A DNA stretch of 64,000 nucleotides, from positions 108,509 to 172,508 of the forward strand of contig NZ_CANSMR010000008.1 of NCBI RefSeq assembly GCF_947648125.1, given 5' to 3'. Under the pieces are notes generated by a model that had not been told where the DNA came from, searched no databases, and saw nothing but the letters and a program-made list of their open reading frames with translations. The position numbers and the translations under genes are program-made. This document shows positions 9,196 to 16,501 of the stretch, piece after piece; positions within the stretch are counted from its first letter, which is position 1, and every line of letters begins with the position of its first letter. This stretch comes from an uncultured Bradyrhizobium sp. (GTDB lineage Bacteria; Pseudomonadota; Alphaproteobacteria; Rhizobiales; Xanthobacteraceae).

Positions 9196-9206
9196 CCTCT
9201 CTCACC

Positions 9207-9293
9207 GTCGTTGCGAGGAGCACAGTGACGAAGCAATCCATGTCCCCACAAGCGAGGGGAATGGATTGCTTCGCTTCGCTCGCAATGACGTTG
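9207..9293. repeat. Long palindromic intergenic repeat
   Basis: An imperfect inverted repeat with ends CGTCGTTGCGAG and CTCGCAATGACG and internal complementary parts AAGCAATCCAT and ATGGATTGCTT. The same family recurs at 44002-44088. It lies between convergent genes (cyclase and MFS exporter). Confidence 0.85.
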
Positions 9294-9303
9294 AGGGGCG
9301 AGG

Positions 9304-10545
9304 TTAGCAGCGCGCCGGTTCGCCGACCATCTCGGGCTGCCGCCTGAGCGACACGGCCGGCGACATCAGTATCACCAGCGCCTGGGCGGCGAAGATCGCG
9401 GCTGCCAGGTAGAGGCAGGCTTCGGCGCCGTAGAGGCCACCGACGACGGCGCCGAGTGCGGAGCCGAGCGGGCGGGCGCCGTAGCTCATGATGTTGATCG
9501 CGGAGACGCGGCCGAGCAGCGAGGGCGGCGTCACCGACTGCCGCAGCGTGGTGGTCGAGATCACCCACAGGATCGGACCGACGCCGAGCAGGAAGAAGCC
9601 GAGGCCCGCGAGCAGCGGCGTCGCAATCCAGGTCGTCAGTGCCATCACGAGCGAGGCGACGAGGCCGGTGACCGGGCCGAGCCCGATCACGGTGCCGAAC
9701 GCCAGCCGCTTCATCACGCGGGTTGCGAACAGCGCGCCGACCACCATGCCGACGCCGTACATCGCGAGCGTCGTACCGACACCGGTGGCGCTGAGCCCGA
9801 GATGGCGCACCGCATAGGGCACGAACACGGCGAGCAGCAGGAAGGACGCGGTGTTAAAGATGAACTGGGTGACGAACACCGGCCGCAGCAAGGCGTGATG
9901 CATCACGAAGGCTGCGCCTTCCTTGATGTCCTGCAACGGATGACGCCGCGGGGCGGGCTGGCGCGCCGGCTCGTAGATGCCGGCGAGCAGCACAACCGCG
10001 ATCGCCGACAGCGCCGCGGCAAACCCGAATGCGGGCGCGGCACCGACCCAGCCGACCAGCACGCCGCCGAGCGCGGGGCCGCTGGCGAAAGCGACCGTGC
10101 GGGCAAGTTCGATGCGGGCATTCGCGGCCGGCAATTGCTGCGAGGTCACCAGCGAGGGGACCAGCGCAGGAGCTGCGACGCTATAGGCAACCGTGCCGCA
10201 GACCGCGATGAAGCCGAGCAAGGCGAGCAGCGGCAAGGTCATCGCGCCGAACCACAGCAACAGCAGGATCGCGGCAAGGGCCGCCGCGCGCAGCGCCTCG
10301 GAGCCCGCCATCACCCAGCGCCGCGACACGCGGTCGGCCAGCAAGCCGGCGGGAATCGCAAACAGGATGAAGGGCAGCGTCAGCGCGGTCTGCAACAGGC
10401 CGGTCTGGCCTTCGCCGACGCCGAGCACCAGCACGGCAACGATAGGCGCGGCAGCAAGCGCAATCTGCTCGGCCGATTGCGCGGCGAGGTTGGACCAGGC
10501 CAGGCGATTGAAGGTGGCGGGCAGGCGCGGCGTATCGGCGGACAT
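9304..10545 (-). CDS. MFS exporter, EntS-like (MFS_3 type)
   Basis: A 413-residue transporter with about twelve membrane segments. The loop after helix 2 carries LLADRVSRRWVMAGSEALRA, the DRxxRR-type signature of major facilitators. The overall pattern, with N-terminal FNRLAWSNLAAQSAEQIALA, matches the MFS_3/EntS branch, which includes exporters of siderophores and drugs. ATG 10545 is preferred over the longer frame because the protein starts MSADTPRLPATFNRLAWSN as in relatives. The substrate is unknown. Confidence 0.85.
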   Translation of the reverse strand: MSADTPRLPATFNRLAWSNLAAQSAEQIALAAAPIVAVLVLGVGEGQTGLLQTALTLPFILFAIPAGLLADRVSRRWVMAGSEALRAAALAAILLLLWFGAMTLPLLALLGFIAVCGTVAYSVAAPALVPSLVTSQQLPAANARIELARTVAFASGPALGGVLVGWVGAAPAFGFAAALSAIAVVLLAGIYEPARQPAPRRHPLQDIKEGAAFVMHHALLRPVFVTQFIFNTASFLLLAVFVPYAVRHLGLSATGVGTTLAMYGVGMVVGALFATRVMKRLAFGTVIGLGPVTGLVASLVMALTTWIATPLLAGLGFFLLGVGPILWVISTTTLRQSVTPPSLLGRVSAINIMSYGARPLGSALGAVVGGLYGAEACLYLAAAIFAAQALVILMSPAVSLRRQPEMVGEPARC

Positions 10546-10625
10546 GGCAGAATCCTTCAGGGATATTCGATCTGGCCATAGTGTGTGGTTGGAAGACGCC
10601 CGATCCCACCCGTTTCCCGACAACG

Positions 10626-10657
10626 CCAAAAACAAAGCCCGCCGTGAGAGGCGGGCC
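10626..10657 (-). terminator. Rho-independent terminator of the flotillin operon
   Basis: Read on the minus strand, a 7-bp GC stem (GCCCGCC with GGCGGGC, loop TCTCAC) is followed by TTTGTTTTT. It lies about 30 bp beyond the flotillin stop codon (10689), so it closes the three-gene operon. Confidence 0.88.
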
Positions 10658-10688
10658 TTGTCACTGATCGCGGAGCGCGGTCACACCA

Positions 10689-12440
10689 TCACGGTGTGGG
10701 TCCCGTAGCGAGCTGGCCGGTGATGGTGCCGACCAATGTGGCCGGTCGGTTGTCGTCGCCGGTTGCAGGCGCCGCGGAGACCTCCGTCTTGCGCTGCGCC
10801 AGCGCGCTGGTCAGGCTGGTGAGCGCGTCGGGGCCGGCCGGGAAGCCTGCCTCCGAAAGGATCTTGTCGATCATCGGCTTGAACGCCGAGACCGACAGCA
10901 ACTGCGCGGCGAGGCCGTCGCCGAGCCCAAGACCGCCATTGCCGTTAGCGTGGCCGTTGGCGCCGCCGCGGCCGAGCATGCTGCCGGTGTCGAAGATCCG
11001 GATGTCGGAGATCTTCTCGATCGGCTTCACCGCCTCGGCGAGCGCGCTCGGGATCACGTTGATCCGCGCGAGGTTGAGATCGTAGGCGATCATGTCGGCG
11101 CTCAGCTTGTTGCGCGCCTCCGCCTTCAACGTCGCGACTTCCGCTTCGGCCTGGCCGAGCGCCTTGACGCCGGCGGCGCGGGTGGTGGCTGCGTTGGCGT
11201 CGGCTTTCGCCAGCACGTTGGTGGCCTCGGCCTTGTTGGCCGCAGCCTGCTTCTCGGCCTCCGCCATCACGGTGATCGGCATCGCATTGGTCTCGGCAAC
11301 CTTGCGTGCCGCGATCACATTGATGATCTTGTCGCGCTCGGCGACCTCCGTGGCGCGGGCGGTGGTGACCTTTTCCTCCGCTGCGATCGCGAGTGCGCGT
11401 GCGGTCTCGGCGATGGTCTGGGCTTCCGACTGCTCCTTGCTCTTGGTCGCAACCGCGATCGCAGCCTCCTGCGCCACGATCTGCAGCTCGCGGTCGGTTT
11501 CAGTGGTGCGGCGCTTCACGGCGAGATCGGCCTCGATCTTGCGGGTGTCGCGGGCCTGGTTGGCCTCGGTCTGCTTGTTGGCGACCGCAAGCTCCTGCTG
11601 GATGCGATACTCGGCCTCGTTCTGCAACGCGGTCTGTTCGACCTGCGCGGTCTGCGCGCGCATCGCGGCGGTCTTGTTGGCGATGTCGCGCTGCTGTGCC
11701 AGCTCGGCCTCGCGCTTGGTGCTTTCGATCGTCAGCGTGGTCTGCCGCGCCACCAGATCCTGCTGGGCGATATTGACCTCGGTGGTGCGGACGATCTGGT
11801 TGCGCTCCTGTTCGCGCTCCTTGGTGATCTTGGTCAGCGTGGTGAGGCCGTGCGCGTCGAAGAAGTTGCTCGGGTTGAAGTGCTTGATGTCGCTCTGGTC
11901 GAGCCGGGTCAGCGACACTGATTCAAGCTCGAGGCCGTTGTTCTGGATGTCGGCGCCGACCGCGTCCTGCACCGCCTTGACGAAGGTCGCGCGCTGCTCC
12001 TGCAACTCCTCGAGGTTCATGGTCGCGGCGACCGAGCGCAGGCCGTCGACGAACTTGGCCTCGACCAGCTCGCGGAGCTCGGCGGCGTCATTGGTGCGGT
12101 TGCCGAGCGTCTGCGCCGCCAGCGCAATCGACGAAGAGTCGGGTTTGACGCGCAGATAGAACTCGGCGCCGATGTCGACGCGCATGCGGTCCTTGGTGAT
12201 CAGCGAGTCGGGGCCGCCGCGCGCGACCTCGAGCCGCAGCGTCTTCAGGTTCACCGCGGCGGTGGAGTGGAAGATCGGCAGCACGAGCGAGCCGCCGTCG
12301 AGCACCACCTTCTGGCCGCCGAGGCCGGTGCGGACATAGGCCTCGTCGCGCGTCGAGCGCTTGTAGAGTTTTGCGAAAAGCAGGCCAATGACGAGGATAG
12401 CGAGGACGCCAATGGCGACCGGTATAGCAAGTTCCCACAT
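10689..12440 (-). CDS. Flotillin-family membrane scaffold protein, YqiK-like
   Basis: A 583-residue flotillin. An N-terminal membrane helix (about residues 4-25, IPVAIGVLAILVIGLLFAKL) is followed by the SPFH domain (about 45-210; VVLDGGSLVLPIFHSTAAVN) and a long Ala/Glu/Lys-rich coiled coil (about 215-470) typical of flotillins. The tail is Gly/Asn-rich and variable. Flotillins mark ordered membrane domains and organise membrane proteins. It is the last gene of an operon starting with the PspA fusion, 3 bp after the YqiJ-like gene. The yqiJ-yqiK pairing is known from enterobacteria; the added PspA gene points to envelope stress. A clear terminator follows. Confidence 0.92.
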   Translation of the reverse strand: MWELAIPVAIGVLAILVIGLLFAKLYKRSTRDEAYVRTGLGGQKVVLDGGSLVLPIFHSTAAVNLKTLRLEVARGGPDSLITKDRMRVDIGAEFYLRVKPDSSSIALAAQTLGNRTNDAAELRELVEAKFVDGLRSVAATMNLEELQEQRATFVKAVQDAVGADIQNNGLELESVSLTRLDQSDIKHFNPSNFFDAHGLTTLTKITKEREQERNQIVRTTEVNIAQQDLVARQTTLTIESTKREAELAQQRDIANKTAAMRAQTAQVEQTALQNEAEYRIQQELAVANKQTEANQARDTRKIEADLAVKRRTTETDRELQIVAQEAAIAVATKSKEQSEAQTIAETARALAIAAEEKVTTARATEVAERDKIINVIAARKVAETNAMPITVMAEAEKQAAANKAEATNVLAKADANAATTRAAGVKALGQAEAEVATLKAEARNKLSADMIAYDLNLARINVIPSALAEAVKPIEKISDIRIFDTGSMLGRGGANGHANGNGGLGLGDGLAAQLLSVSAFKPMIDKILSEAGFPAGPDALTSLTSALAQRKTEVSAAPATGDDNRPATLVGTITGQLATGPTP

Positions 12441-12443
12441 ATG

Positions 12444-13106
12444 TTATGCCCTGTTGGAAGACTGTTGCTGTTCAATGAGGTCGGCGGGAGCGGCGATCGC
12501 GATGAAGCTCTTGGCGTCGCGGTCGACCAGCAACACGCTGGCGCCGACCGGCAACGCCTCGGACTCCGCGCTGGCACGCGCCGACACGGTGTGCCAGTTG
12601 CCGAAGACATCCTTGAGACGGACCCTGCCGGGCAGGCCCTGATCGAGCGGGCCGACCGACACGGTTGCGACCTTGCCGACAAAGTCACTGTCGTCGACCG
12701 CATAGCTCTCGTCGCGGGGAATGATGCGGGCGAGGCCGCGGCTCGCATTTCTGATCACGGGGACGCTGCCGGCGGCAGCAACCACCGCGGCAATCGAGAC
12801 CGGAATGGCGGTGCCTGCGGCATGCGCCAGTCCTTGAAGCAGGAAGCCTCCGATCGAGAATATGCCAAGTCTCAGGATGATCAGGATCAGGAGGGGAAGC
12901 CGCCCGGCGTTGATCCAGAGAAACAGGCCACTGAGAGCATTGTGGCTCTCGGCCTCGACCGCGAAATCCTTGCCGACGAGTTCGCTGATCGAAAGTCCGA
13001 CCATGGTGGTCAGCAGCTCGATACCGCCAAGTGCCACCATGATCGCAGCCGCGACCGCGAAGGGCCGCACGTCCGGGGCGAGCAGAATGTCGCCAACTGC
13101 ACTCAT
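12444..13106 (-). CDS. YqiJ-like inner-membrane protein with OB-fold (NfeD-like partner of flotillin)
   Basis: A 220-residue protein with four hydrophobic segments (about residues 15-45, 64-90, 90-115) and a C-terminal soluble OB-fold-like domain (about 145-205; DFVGKVATVSVGPLDQGLPG, ASVLLVDRDAKSFIAIA). This arrangement matches YqiJ/NfeD-type partners that accompany flotillins. The start codon overlaps the stop of the upstream PspA fusion gene (ATGA at 13103-13106), and the flotillin begins 3 bp downstream, so translational coupling is likely. Its molecular role is not established. Confidence 0.82.
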   Translation of the reverse strand: MSAVGDILLAPDVRPFAVAAAIMVALGGIELLTTMVGLSISELVGKDFAVEAESHNALSGLFLWINAGRLPLLILIILRLGIFSIGGFLLQGLAHAAGTAIPVSIAAVVAAAGSVPVIRNASRGLARIIPRDESYAVDDSDFVGKVATVSVGPLDQGLPGRVRLKDVFGNWHTVSARASAESEALPVGASVLLVDRDAKSFIAIAAPADLIEQQQSSNRA

Positions 13107-14233
13107 TTTTCTGACTTGATCCTTTCAAGCCGCGCCGCGATTTCCTTTTCACGGTGCAGGCGATCGAGTTCGTCAAGCTCCTTGTCGCCGAGCACGCTTG
13201 CAGCGGGAACACCGGTGACCCGGGCGATCGCCGCCATGGCGCGTTCGGCACTCAATGTATTGGTCGTCGATGGGGCCCGGCTGGTTTCGTCCTTGGCCTC
13301 GCGGATCAGACTTTGTTCGAGATCGGCCAATCGCGTCTCCGCTTCGCGGCGCGCGCCGAGCATGGCTTGCAGCGCCTTGGTCTGCTCGTCGATTTCGAGC
13401 TCGATGAAATCCATCGCGCGTTCCAGCGCGATCACCTGCGACTCCAGGTCAATTTGCCGTGCGACACCGGCGCGCGCGAGATCCTCGCGATTTTCCGCAA
13501 GTGCGAGACGGATCTTCTCGTTCAGAGCAGTCGTCTCGGTATCCAGTTCTTCGCGCCGCCTCTTCAAGCGGAATTCCTCGGCGCGAGACTTGCCGAGCGC
13601 ATAGCGCGCTTCGTCGGCGCCGGCGTCGATCTCGCGGATCGCCTGCTTGACCAGCGCGACCTTGTTGTTGCTCTCGACGTTGTCGATGGTCTGGCTCGCG
13701 ATGGCGGCAAGAAGCCGGCCCATGCGCGCAAGGATGCCTTCGTGAAGCATGGTCTTCTCCTCCGGTTGTGCTGATTTCGATTTGACGGCGATGTGGATTT
13801 CGTAGCCGCGTCCATCCGAGATCAAATGTGCCGGGAAGGGGCTTTCCCAGCCCGAGACATATCCCGGCACGTCGAACGGCACCAAGACGCGTCCGCCGAC
13901 AGTGCTAATGGTCAGTGAAGTTGGACCCTTGATCGCAAACAACTTGTCGTCGAGCGGTATCCGGCGGACGGCGGCGCCTGCGATGTAGTTGGCGCGGTCG
14001 CGCAGGCCGAGCGTCACCAGCCGCGCGGGCAGGCCGGTCTCCTTGCGGATCTTCTCGTAAGCCTGGGCATGCAGCGAGACGAGGTTGGCGCCGACGGGGG
14101 CGACCTCGGCGAGGATCGCCATCATCCGGTCATAGGCCGCAAAGGTCGCCTCGATCGCCTCGATGCCCGACGGGTCGGGGGCGAGGGCGTAGCGCAGCGT
14201 TGCGGTTGGCGTCTCGACGGGCAGCTTGATCAT
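13103..14233 (-). CDS. TnpB-like N-terminal domain fused to PspA/IM30 protein
   Basis: The 376-residue product (ATG 14233; GTG 14251 also possible) has two parts. Residues 1-155 resemble the wedge/REC region of IS605-family TnpB: LHAQAYEKIRKETGLPARLV, then DDKLFAIKG, STVGGRVLVPFDVPGYVSGW and GRGYEIHIAVKSK, which match TnpB motifs in order. In TnpB the RuvC nuclease starts right after this point; here it is absent. Residues 162-376 form a PspA/IM30 coiled coil (MLHEGILARMGRLLAAIASQ, ALAENREDLARAGVARQIDL). PspA proteins bind stressed membranes. An internal Shine-Dalgarno before Met162 may give PspA alone. The gene heads an operon with YqiJ-like and flotillin genes. The TnpB relation is from remembered motifs, not an alignment. 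Confidence 0.78.
   Translation of the reverse strand: MIKLPVETPTATLRYALAPDPSGIEAIEATFAAYDRMMAILAEVAPVGANLVSLHAQAYEKIRKETGLPARLVTLGLRDRANYIAGAAVRRIPLDDKLFAIKGPTSLTISTVGGRVLVPFDVPGYVSGWESPFPAHLISDGRGYEIHIAVKSKSAQPEEKTMLHEGILARMGRLLAAIASQTIDNVESNNKVALVKQAIREIDAGADEARYALGKSRAEEFRLKRRREELDTETTALNEKIRLALAENREDLARAGVARQIDLESQVIALERAMDFIELEIDEQTKALQAMLGARREAETRLADLEQSLIREAKDETSRAPSTTNTLSAERAMAAIARVTGVPAASVLGDKELDELDRLHREKEIAARLERIKSEK
13748..13763 (-). promoter_or_regulatory. Internal ribosome binding site and start for PspA alone
   Basis: On the minus strand GGAGGAGAAG (13763-13754) precedes ATG 13750-13748, a near-perfect Shine-Dalgarno sequence. Initiation here would yield a 215-residue protein that begins exactly where PspA proteins normally begin (MLHEGILARMGRLL). 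It is much stronger than the sites before the full-length starts. Confidence 0.7.
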
Positions 14234-14242
14234 GCCTCTAAC

Positions 14243-14267
14243 GTAAAGCACTTCCTCAGTACTTTAC
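14243..14267 (-). promoter_or_regulatory. Leader hairpin at the start of the TnpB-PspA gene
   Basis: In the minus-strand transcript, GUAAAGUAC and GUGCUUUAC form a 9-bp stem with one G-U pair around a 7-nt loop, UGAGGAA. The loop presents a GAGGA Shine-Dalgarno-like sequence, and the GTG start (14251) lies in the 3' arm; ATG 14233 follows 9 nt later. As DNA it is an inverted repeat with one mismatch. It could be a translational control hairpin or a DNA operator; which one is unknown. Confidence 0.6.
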
Positions 14268-14302
14268 AAGGTGGGTGGCCGGTATCATTTTCGTGAACCT
14301 AG

Positions 14303-14328
14303 ATGCAGTTGCAAATGAGTTGCAATAA
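14303..14328 (+). promoter_or_regulatory. Candidate Mur/Fur-type manganese operator of mntH
   Basis: Three imperfect direct repeats (TGCAGT, TGCAAA, TGCAAT) form a block reading TGCAAATGAGTTGCAA in its centre, about 27 bp before the mntH start. In rhizobia the Fur-family regulator Mur represses mntH under manganese sufficiency by binding such TGCAAAT-type hexads. It lies in the divergent interval shared with the TnpB-PspA operon. Confidence 0.65.
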
Positions 14329-14354
14329 CGGGAGAGATCGGCCATCCTTCGGGG

Positions 14355-15728
14355 ATGGACGCTCGTACCCCTGAAATGTCTCCCGTTTCCGTTGCCGACA
14401 CCGTGCCAGGTGGCTGGCGGGGCGATGCCGGCCATACGCGCAGCCTGCCCGAGGTGAACGCGACTGTTGCGGTGCCGAGCGCAGGCGTGTGGTGGCGGCG
14501 CCTGCTGGCCTTCGCCGGGCCGGGCTACCTAGTCTCGGTCGGCTATATGGACCCCGGCAATTGGGCGACCGATCTCGCGGGTGGATCGAAGTTTGGCTAC
14601 ACGCTGCTGTCGGTCATCCTGCTCTCCAACCTGATGGCGATCCTGCTGCAGGCGCTTTCGGCCCGGCTTGGCATCGCGACCGACCGCGACCTGGCGCAGG
14701 CCTGCCGCGCGATCTATTCGCGGCCGGTGAATTTGCTGTTGTGGCTCGCCTGCGAGGCCGCGATCATCGCCTGCGACCTCGCCGAAGTGATCGGCACCGC
14801 GATCGCGCTGAAGCTGCTGTTCGGCATTCCCTTGATCGGCGGCGCGCTGCTGGCGGCGCTCGATGCGTTCCTGCTGCTGCTCCTGATGAACCGCGGCTTC
14901 CGCTTCCTCGAGGCCTTCGTGATTGCGCTGCTGATCGTCATCGCGGTCTGCTTTGTGGTCCAGATCACCGCCGCCGCGCCGCCGATTGCCGGCGTGATCG
15001 GCGGCTTCATGCCCTCGCGCGAGATCGTCACCAATCCGGAGATGCTCTACATCGCGATCGGCATCATCGGCGCCACCGTGATGCCGCATAACCTCTATCT
15101 GCACTCATCGATCGTGCAGACCCGCGCCTATCCGCGCACCGAGGAAGGGCGGCGCGATGCGATCAAATGGGCGACCACCGACTCCACTATCGCGCTGATG
15201 CTGGCGCTGTTCGTCAACGCCGCGATCCTGGTGCTGGCGGCTGCGACCTTCCACAAGAGCGGCCACTCTGATGTCGCCGAGATCGACCAGGCCTTCGAGC
15301 TGCTGTCGCCGCTGCTCGGCCTTGGCATCGCCTCGACGCTGTTTGCCGTGGCGCTGCTGGCGTCCGGCCTCAACTCGACGGTGACGGCGACGCTGGCCGG
15401 CCAGATCGTGATGCAGGGCTTTCTCGACCTCAAGCTACCCGACTGGCTGCAGCGGCTGGTAACCCGCGGCATCGCGATCGTTCCGGTCATCGTGGTGGCG
15501 GCGCTCTATGGCGAGAGCGGCACCGCGCAGCTGCTCGTGTTCAGCCAGGTCGTGCTGTCGATGCAGCTGCCGTTCGCGGTGATCCCGCTGGTGCGCTTCG
15601 TGTCCGACAAGCGCAAGATGGGCGCGTTCGCGATCTCGCGCCCCGTTGCGATAGCGGCGTGGATCGTGGCCGGCCTGATCGTGATCCTGAACGTGAAGCT
15701 GCTGATCGATACGATCTTCGGTACCTAA
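14355..15728 (+). CDS. mntH: Nramp-family manganese importer MntH
   Basis: A 457-residue proton-coupled Mn2+ importer with eleven membrane helices. The metal-site motif DPGN is in [15 protein letters not shown] (helix 1) and [15 protein letters not shown] in helix 6, both diagnostic of Nramp. The N-terminal 45 residues are hydrophilic; ATG 14355 or ATG 14385 could be the start. A Mur-type operator lies just upstream. In Bradyrhizobium MntH is the main Mn2+ uptake route and is controlled by Mur. The stop codon overlaps the convergent bpt gene by 4 bp. Confidence 0.93.
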
Positions 15729-16501
15729 TCCTGCGGCTCGGCCAGCGCCTCACCTGACGCGTCGACGCGCAGCCAGCCCGATGGCGCGAGCCGCTGCTGC
15801 GGCAGGAAGCGGCCCTTGTAGTCCATCTTCTTGGAGCCCTCGATCCAATAGCCGAGATAGACGTAGGGCAGGCCCTGTCGGCGGGCGCGGGCGATATGAT
15901 CGAGGATCATGAAGGTGCCGAGCGAGCGGGCCTCAAGCCCCGGCTCGAAGAAGGAATAGACCATCGACAGCCCGTCGCTGAGCACGTCGGTCAGCGCCAC
16001 CGCCATCAGCTCGTCGCCGCGGCCGGTGATGGCGCTGTCGGCATTGCGCTTGCGGTACTCGATGATCCGGGTCTCGACATGGCTGTCCTCGACCATCATC
16101 GCATAGTCGAGCACGGTCATGTCGGCCATGCCGCCGTTGCGGTGGCGGCGGTCGAGATAGGCGCGGAAGACCGAGTATTGCTCGGAGGTCGGCACCGCCG
16201 TGCGCTGCTCGCCGATGATGTCGGCGTTGCGGGCCAGCACCTTGCGGAAATTGCGGGAGGGGCGGAATTCGTTGGCGACCACCCGGACCGAGACGCAGGC
16301 CCGGCAGGCGTCGCAGGCCGGGCGGTAGGCTATCGACTGGCTGCGGCGGAAGCCGCCATGGGTCAGCAAGTCGTTGAGATCGCCCGCTTTGTCGCCGACC
16401 AGGTGCGTGAAAACCTTCCGCTCATGCCGGCCCGGCAGATACGGGCAGGGGGAGGGCGCCGTCAGATAGAACTGGGGGGTATCACGCGAGTGTTGGGTCA
16501 C
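15725..16501 (-). CDS. bpt: Aspartate/glutamate leucyltransferase (Bpt)
   Basis: A 258-residue transferase that adds leucine from Leu-tRNA to proteins with N-terminal Asp or Glu, marking them for ClpAP (N-degron pathway). The N-terminal ATE domain shows [19 protein letters not shown] and the cysteine cluster [12 protein letters not shown]. The C-terminal acyltransferase-like domain has [20 protein letters not shown] and [20 protein letters not shown]. Length is as expected. Older annotations call this family arginyl-tRNA-protein transferase; the bacterial enzymes use leucine. Confidence 0.93.

Follow-up and report, generated by a model that had tools for sequence, protein, structure and literature searches.

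Gene and domain organization

The locus examined here raises the question of what the N-terminal half of a TnpB nuclease does in front of a PspA membrane-stress protein, and whether it would act there on RNA, on DNA, on other proteins or not at all. The window, a 64,000-nucleotide stretch of an uncultured Bradyrhizobium sp. genome (contig NZ_CANSMR010000008.1), had previously been interpreted without database searches. That sequence-only reading described a single open reading frame in which TnpB-like motifs (residues 1-155) pass into PspA at the point where TnpB would begin its RuvC nuclease, and suggested an exapted RNA-binding domain. The frame is real, encoding 376 amino acids on the minus strand (14233 to 13103) with no internal stop. 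The automated ORF listing starts six codons upstream, at a GTG, but the ATG at 14233 is the likely true start since promoter geometry favours it.

A Pfam search of the full protein placed PspA_IM30 at residues 166-293 (E 1.2e-10) and found no family for residues 1-161. The PF04012 score of 41.9 bits exceeded the gathering score of 33.9, while TIGR02977, the model of the proteobacterial PspA orthologue, stayed at 25.8 bits against a cut-off of 243. An AlphaFold model contained the coiled-coil hairpin of the ESCRT-III-like fold (helices H188-246 and H250-315), and Foldseek matches of the PspA part included 7o3w (E 2.2e-5) and 4whe (TMt 0.81). The full-protein model had a pLDDT of 72 and a pTM of 0.40, and does not fix the mutual arrangement of the TnpB and PspA halves. 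PF04012 was matched in all 32 members of one alignment (A7; E <= 0.001) and in six of six distant members; in loci outside these two groups PspA identity was assigned by frame length and alignment. Ten of eleven plasmid records annotate the whole fusion as 'PspA/IM30 family protein'.

Genes for a YqiJ-like protein and a flotillin lie immediately downstream, both in the window and in five annotated plasmid regions, and are the sole neighbours common to all five of the latter. A LysR regulator gene and an SDR gene were each found near the fusion in two of the five. In the window, an Nramp-family transporter gene (14355-15725, plus strand) is divergent from the PspA-YqiJ-flotillin operon. Further along, frames on both strands at 9200-9480 (MDCFASLAMT and KQSIPLACGDMDCF) are presumably typical of a dispersed rhizobial repeat.

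Table 1. Features of the fusion gene, its promoter and its downstream neighbours (window coordinates).
Feature	Position	Strand	Evidence
-35-like box TTGTAA (relatives CTTGAA/TTGAAA)	14264..14269	-	by eye, aligned upstream regions
Operator-like palindrome AAAGTACT-N5-AGTGCTTT, between -35 and -10 boxes	14245..14265	.	single match in window; conserved in relatives
-10-like box TACGTT (relatives TATGAT, TATATT), 6 nt before ATG1	14240..14245	-	by eye, aligned upstream regions
RuvC-less TnpB half, residues 1-161 (beta1, three REC helices, six WED strands)	13751..14233	-	hhalign, AlphaFold, Foldseek/VIA-align
Internal Shine-Dalgarno GGAGGAG	13757..13763	-	sequence
Internal ATG, codon 162, probable start of short PspA	13748..13750	-	Shine-Dalgarno and start codon kept in 163/163 fused loci
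PspA/IM30 part, residues 162-376; stop codon 13103-13105	13106..13750	-	Pfam PF04012, E 3.3e-11 (part alone); Foldseek to Vipp1 and E. coli PspA
YqiJ-like inner-membrane OB-fold protein; overlaps pspA end	12444..13106	-	PF21001 and PF07290
Flotillin (YqiK-like)	10689..12440	-	PF15975 and PF01145

TnpB origin of the N-terminal half

Homology of the N-terminal part to TnpB is visible only with profiles, in the tails of tblastn searches and in structure. Sequence-only searches against Pfam, PHROGs and the PDB found no TnpB, nor did PDB-profile searches on their own. NCBIfam yielded a single weak match of TnpB type, in one of 18 family members (TIGR01765, E 0.19), and the tblastn tails reached TnpB at E 0.09-9. 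The NCBIfam matches of the window's N part to ABC_BMP_B6 (E 0.0039) and sulfite_DH covered fragments and were rejected as chance. With hhalign, a profile of 18 family members aligned collinearly with three annotated TnpBs (98.4%, E 4.5e-15, 146 columns), and the motifs quoted in the sequence-only reading are present and belong to this domain. Among the controls, the reversed profile gave E 0.43 and the best of 20 column-shuffled profiles E 0.086. When the TnpB-half profile was shuffled 40 times, the score was at most 22.2, compared with 111.1 for the real one; the RuvC half gave E 0.51, and the PspA half against TnpB E 0.5. In a search of 398 Pseudomonadota genomes not aimed at TnpB, the strongest hit of the family profile outside the fusions was a full TnpB (E 8.3e-11) that carries PF01385 and PF07282 and directly adjoins a Y1_Tnp transposase (PF01797). 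By hhalign and profile search, sequence homology to the TnpB/Cas12 superfamily is above chance. Weak profile-search matches (L131-L136, E 9e-4 and above) were not counted as relatives; L131-L134 were inspected.

Fold searches (Foldseek, VIA-align) agreed with the TnpB identity of the N-terminal half, with homology over about 145 residues, and solely TnpB/Cas12/Fanzor/TranC-type chains appeared among the 50 VIA-align matches listed. The half shows the arrangement of the N-terminal lobe of TnpB/Cas12, a WED beta barrel whose first two strands, beta1 and beta2, flank the inserted REC helices. The structural comparison proposed in the sequence-only reading thus returned the TnpB fold. As a lone sequence ISDra2 TnpB is not recognised by the family profile (E 0.25), and adding it to the TnpB profile gave E 6.5e-17; its residue alignment is unsure, MAFFT placing the ISDra2 TAM helix on a different family helix than helix order does. 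Taken at the level of sequence and predicted fold, derivation of the N-terminal half from TnpB is near certain. A quick tree of 55 representatives and only five TnpB-type sequences, with long branches, put the fusion family on one side of a branch (SH-aLRT 99) and does not place the donor lineage.

The RuvC nuclease (D-E-D) and the zinc-finger TNB domain are absent, and Pfam and Foldseek agree with the earlier description of a WED/REC half joined in frame to PspA/IM30 at the RuvC position. As in the earlier observation, no transposon was recognised within what was covered: TnpA was not found among the six classified genes neighbouring the fusion, and an Rfam scan of 10500-15900 gave no family at the gathering score, the scan covering Rfam families and not omega-RNAs as a class. 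The guided_TnpB model had no match elsewhere in the window's own genome. Net charge of the N-terminal half ranged from -6 to +5 in 18 members, compared with +8 to +18 in four TnpB halves, one of them a stand-alone protein (L113, below).

Conservation and distribution of the fusion

An uninterrupted frame of 367-384 codons was found in all 80 loci read from genome contigs, and the fused frame was intact in 163 of 165 loci of a larger set (142 distinct proteins, related by descent). The two loci without a PspA part are L145, a natural loss, and L164, cut by a contig end. Fifteen loci had been left out of this set by hand as PspA-only, TnpB or chance matches (L024, L025, L111-L115, L121 and L130-L136). 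Because the frame is uninterrupted in these 80/80 and 163/165 loci, chance or assembly error is excluded as the source of the fusion; a split-gene or frameshift explanation was rejected on the same continuity. The fusion occurs in Bradyrhizobium and beyond, in several alphaproteobacterial families. Neither outcome named as refuting in the sequence-only reading was observed: the N-terminal part does match TnpB in structure, and relatives do not always carry the two parts as separate genes with intervening stop codons. PspA-only relatives also exist (L024, L025).

With dN/dS values of 0.07-0.17 (27 pairs), similar to the C-terminal part, the N-terminal part is under selection, and 61 columns were invariant among 20 aligned sequences. 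In some fused relatives this part is just 31-36% identical to that of the window. A copy in an assembly titled Frankia sp. RB7 (L094, JAUEPE010000003.1) is of Bradyrhizobium type, 59% identical to the window and like a second Bradyrhizobium clade; this assembly is probably mislabelled or contaminated.

Promoter architecture and a dedicated palindrome

Upstream regions of the relatives align as CTTGaA-AAGYACY-N5-RGTRCTTT-At, the palindrome filling the gap between the -35-like and -10-like boxes (Table 1). The assignment of these boxes rests on the alignment of relatives, a strict sigma-70 consensus scan having found no promoter in 14150-14400. The palindrome is the sole match in the window at up to two mismatches (0.04 expected) and has one site in the whole genome. 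Across gene-bearing Bradyrhizobium genomes, the exact-pattern site was present exactly once in 20 of 21 (6/6 and 14/15), the exception (G033) having a gene copy cut by a contig end, and it was present in none of 15 Bradyrhizobium genomes without the gene. G058 and G096 lack the exact pattern and carry differing sites of their own. Assignment of the palindrome to the divergent Nramp gene was considered and dropped, as five plasmid regions without an annotated Nramp gene still have it (four by exact pattern, L116 one base off).

Palindrome types differ by TnpB-domain clade at the same promoter position (GTGCTTT/GTACTTT; GTGTTTT; NTCCTTT/NTACTTT; GTCACTT). Where residue 71 is Arg, operator base 5 is C in at least one half-site in 142 of 146 loci; where it is Gln, in 0 of 19. 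This coupling is suggestive only and cannot reach significance, since residue 71 need have changed only twice on the tree. In a divergent subclade (L179-L181) the promoter is laid out differently: its palindromes, judged by eye, are of AATCAC/GTGATT type and apparently number two per promoter, and ATG1 is preceded by an SD-like stretch containing GGAG.

An in-frame start codon lacking a Shine-Dalgarno sequence (SD; -4.0 to +1.9) is found 10-12 nt past the palindrome in 160 of 165 loci. The picker of palindrome-type sites favoured palindromes preceded by a TTG and followed by a start codon at 9-13 nt; the exact-pattern counts are free of such bias. Among 128 exact-pattern loci the first in-frame start is at 10-12 nt in 69, and an earlier GTG or ATG occurs at 0-2 nt in 59, where it is unlikely to be transcribed because the -10 box sits there. 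ATG1, at which no SD was found, would then be the real start of the long form. With its start 10-12 nt after the palindrome and no SD, the long form is probably translated from a leaderless or nearly leaderless mRNA. Such a class is documented in B. japonicum, where 320 gene starts fall 0-10 nt ahead of the start codon (PMC4842269, in excerpt).

An internal start at the domain junction

The junction start codon and its SD are kept in all 163 fused loci, as ATG in 162 and as GTG in one (L167, preceded by GGAGGAG). Predicted SD energy before the ATG was -6.6 to -12 kcal/mol in 162 of 163 loci, the best of the candidate Met codons being taken per locus in two passes (149 + 13 loci). Other in-frame ATGs had a median of -2.8 and a strongest value of -9.3 (n=429, 83 of 84 loci); L093 was left out of this comparison for a motif mismatch and does have an SD-ATG at the junction. 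The median strength at the junction was reached by 1.2% of all codon positions. Glutamate codons at the junction were GAG in 323 cases and GAA in 13, compared with 3100 and 2045 elsewhere. Since SD and start codon persist in all fused loci, among them relatives with N-terminal parts only 31-36% identical to that of the window, a short PspA is very probably also made besides the fusion.

An operon that has lost PspA

In genome G801 (L145, reverse strand) a stop codon closes the TnpB domain and PspA is missing. The TnpB half has a perfect palindrome in front of it and, behind it, genes for YqiJ and an SPFH/flotillin-type protein, the latter cut by the locus end. Retention of operator, TnpB half and membrane genes as a set is what would be expected in this one genome if the TnpB half is a regulator, and the arrangement shows that PspA is not essential to the operator-TnpB half-YqiJ-flotillin module. 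The sequence-only reading held none of the following: the junction start, the promoter palindrome and this PspA-less operon.

Proposed function and alternative explanations

Taken together, it is rather probable that the gene's RuvC-less TnpB half has been domesticated to bind DNA as protein alone and so to regulate its own envelope-stress operon; the DNA-binding role of the half, predicted from sequence patterns, carries a similar, better-than-even weight. DNA rather than RNA is the preferred target because the gene's promoter holds a dedicated palindrome that accompanies the TnpB domain, varies by clade and persists without PspA. The near-zero net charge of the N-terminal half, unlike that of TnpB halves, and the unsure residue equivalences with ISDra2 TnpB count against DNA binding. 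Also set against the autoregulator explanation are the earlier in-frame starts after the palindrome, the deviating promoters of L179-L181, the PspA-less operon of L145, and the LysR and SDR genes near some plasmid copies. Two products would be made: ATG1, which lacks an SD and appears leaderless, would give a long TnpB-PspA, and the internal start a short PspA. These may co-assemble, leaving a TnpB half on some of the PspA subunits only. In ISDra2 TnpB the TAM duplex sits in the WED-REC cleft (PMC10097598, in excerpt); here the corresponding cleft would read a half-site without RNA, and two copies of the TnpB half could bind the palindrome as a dimer, block RNA polymerase and repress their own operon. 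Upon envelope damage, PspA would assemble on the membrane and draw the attached repressor off the operator, inducing the operon, with the short PspA doing most of the membrane work. Sensor and repressor would thus be united in one chain. The full generalization, in which the TAM-reading half of TnpB became an RNA-free, sequence-specific DNA-binding domain whose operator co-evolved in alphaproteobacteria, and in which the PspA fusion is a one-chain membrane-stress switch (the long form represses, the short form repairs, membrane recruitment lifts repression), is evenly balanced in our judgement.

OB folds can bind many partners, and the TnpB half might serve PspA as an adaptor to other proteins or as an oligomerisation cap, with the palindrome left to a dedicated repressor encoded elsewhere, which could likewise give one site per genome. 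Near-neutral charge and the OB fold of WED (PMC10097598, in excerpt) would suit this role, and DNA binding by the TnpB half is itself a prediction. This explanation is nonetheless considered unlikely, if deserving of serious weight: across the 36 Bradyrhizobium genomes tested the operator was confined to genomes with this gene, at one site each, it varies between TnpB-domain clades, it remains with the TnpB domain after loss of the supposed partner (L145), and the only genes adjoining the fusion in every one of the five plasmid regions are those for YqiJ and flotillin.

RNA-guided or RNA-sensing control of envelope stress, close to the exaptation first suggested, would draw on the part that WED takes in omega-RNA binding (PMC10097598, in excerpt) and on the precedent of TldR, TnpB-derived RNA-guided repressors (PMC13418256, in excerpt). 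The suggestion found no support here and is improbable: the positive charge is lost, as is the RuvC lobe, which in TnpB holds much of the omega-RNA (PMC10097598, in excerpt), the scan around the operon brought no Rfam family to its gathering score, and a guide would be superfluous for a symmetric palindrome in the promoter of the gene itself. Lastly, the strong SD-ATG at the junction and the PspA-only relatives would be compatible with the TnpB half being the fossil of an insertion before pspA, translated but functionless, with the short PspA as the real gene. This is very improbable and largely contradicted by the low dN/dS of the N-terminal part, which resembles that of the C-terminal part, by the invariant columns, by the frame being kept in all but two loci (one of them contig-cut) and by survival of the TnpB domain alone in L145.

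Comparison with known systems

The fusion resembles TnpB of IS200/IS605 elements (ISDra2; 8bf8, 8exa, 8h1j) in its WED and REC half, with beta1, REC helices and further WED strands in that order. It differs in having no RuvC, TNB or C-terminal part and no recognised transposon or omega-RNA, in its neutralised charge, in three REC helices in the model compared with four in TnpB, and in being joined to PspA. To our knowledge, the known domesticated TnpB/Cas12 proteins keep a nuclease lobe, active or dead, and an RNA, and we know of no transcription factor consisting of an RNA-free, DNA-binding TnpB half. TldR is likewise a domesticated TnpB relative with a role in transcription control, a role that is probable for the fusion, but TldR has a mutationally inactivated RuvC and an RNA guide (PMC13418256, in excerpt), whereas in the fusion the nuclease lobe is wholly absent rather than mutated, and the protein probably targets the palindrome upstream of its gene, within the promoter.

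In E. coli, PspA likewise ties transcription of its operon to the state of the membrane, as is proposed for the fusion. The sigma-54 activator that it holds there, PspF, is a separate protein, whereas in the fusion the DNA-binding domain would be in the PspA chain itself and act as a repressor. Operons of the CesT/Tir-PspA type also bring together PspA, a YqiJ/YuaF-like protein and flotillin; in these a CesT/Tir-like gene is paired with PspA, whereas here a TnpB half is fused to it (PMC11237479, in excerpt). The PspA forms named in the excerpted part of that survey are tandem repeats and fusions with NlpC/P60 and PspAA, none with TnpB, and excerpts of a second Psp survey (PMC9239133) make no mention of a TnpB-PspA fusion. 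Title searches of open-licence PMC articles for TnpB with PspA found no such protein, and among the matches listed for domesticated or RuvC-less TnpB, and among those listed for YqiJ, flotillin and PspA, no title named the fusion.

The family offers a two-domain TAM reader without nuclease lobe or recognised RNA, found in cellular genes and once as a stand-alone protein. If the palindrome is bound, TAM/PAM reading would be separable from RNA guidance, the palindrome types and matched protein clades would form a natural evolution series for TAM/PAM reading by TnpB/Cas12, and PspA stress control in rhizobia and their kin would have a new wiring. If true, this would be a new use for TnpB, the ancestor of CRISPR-Cas12.

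Two further TnpB N-terminal halves were observed on plasmids of other bacteria. On pTHECO01 of Thermobacillus composti (L113, 2519-3049) a stand-alone half of 176 amino acids, annotated as hypothetical, overlaps the start of an S-layer-homology protein gene by 4 bases; it is possibly a second, independent exaptation, or else a remnant. On pRMAR01 of Rhodothermus marinus (L121, about 2501-2896) an unannotated frame corresponds to the N-terminal half of TnpB without an intact RuvC part and is probably a decaying TnpB copy.
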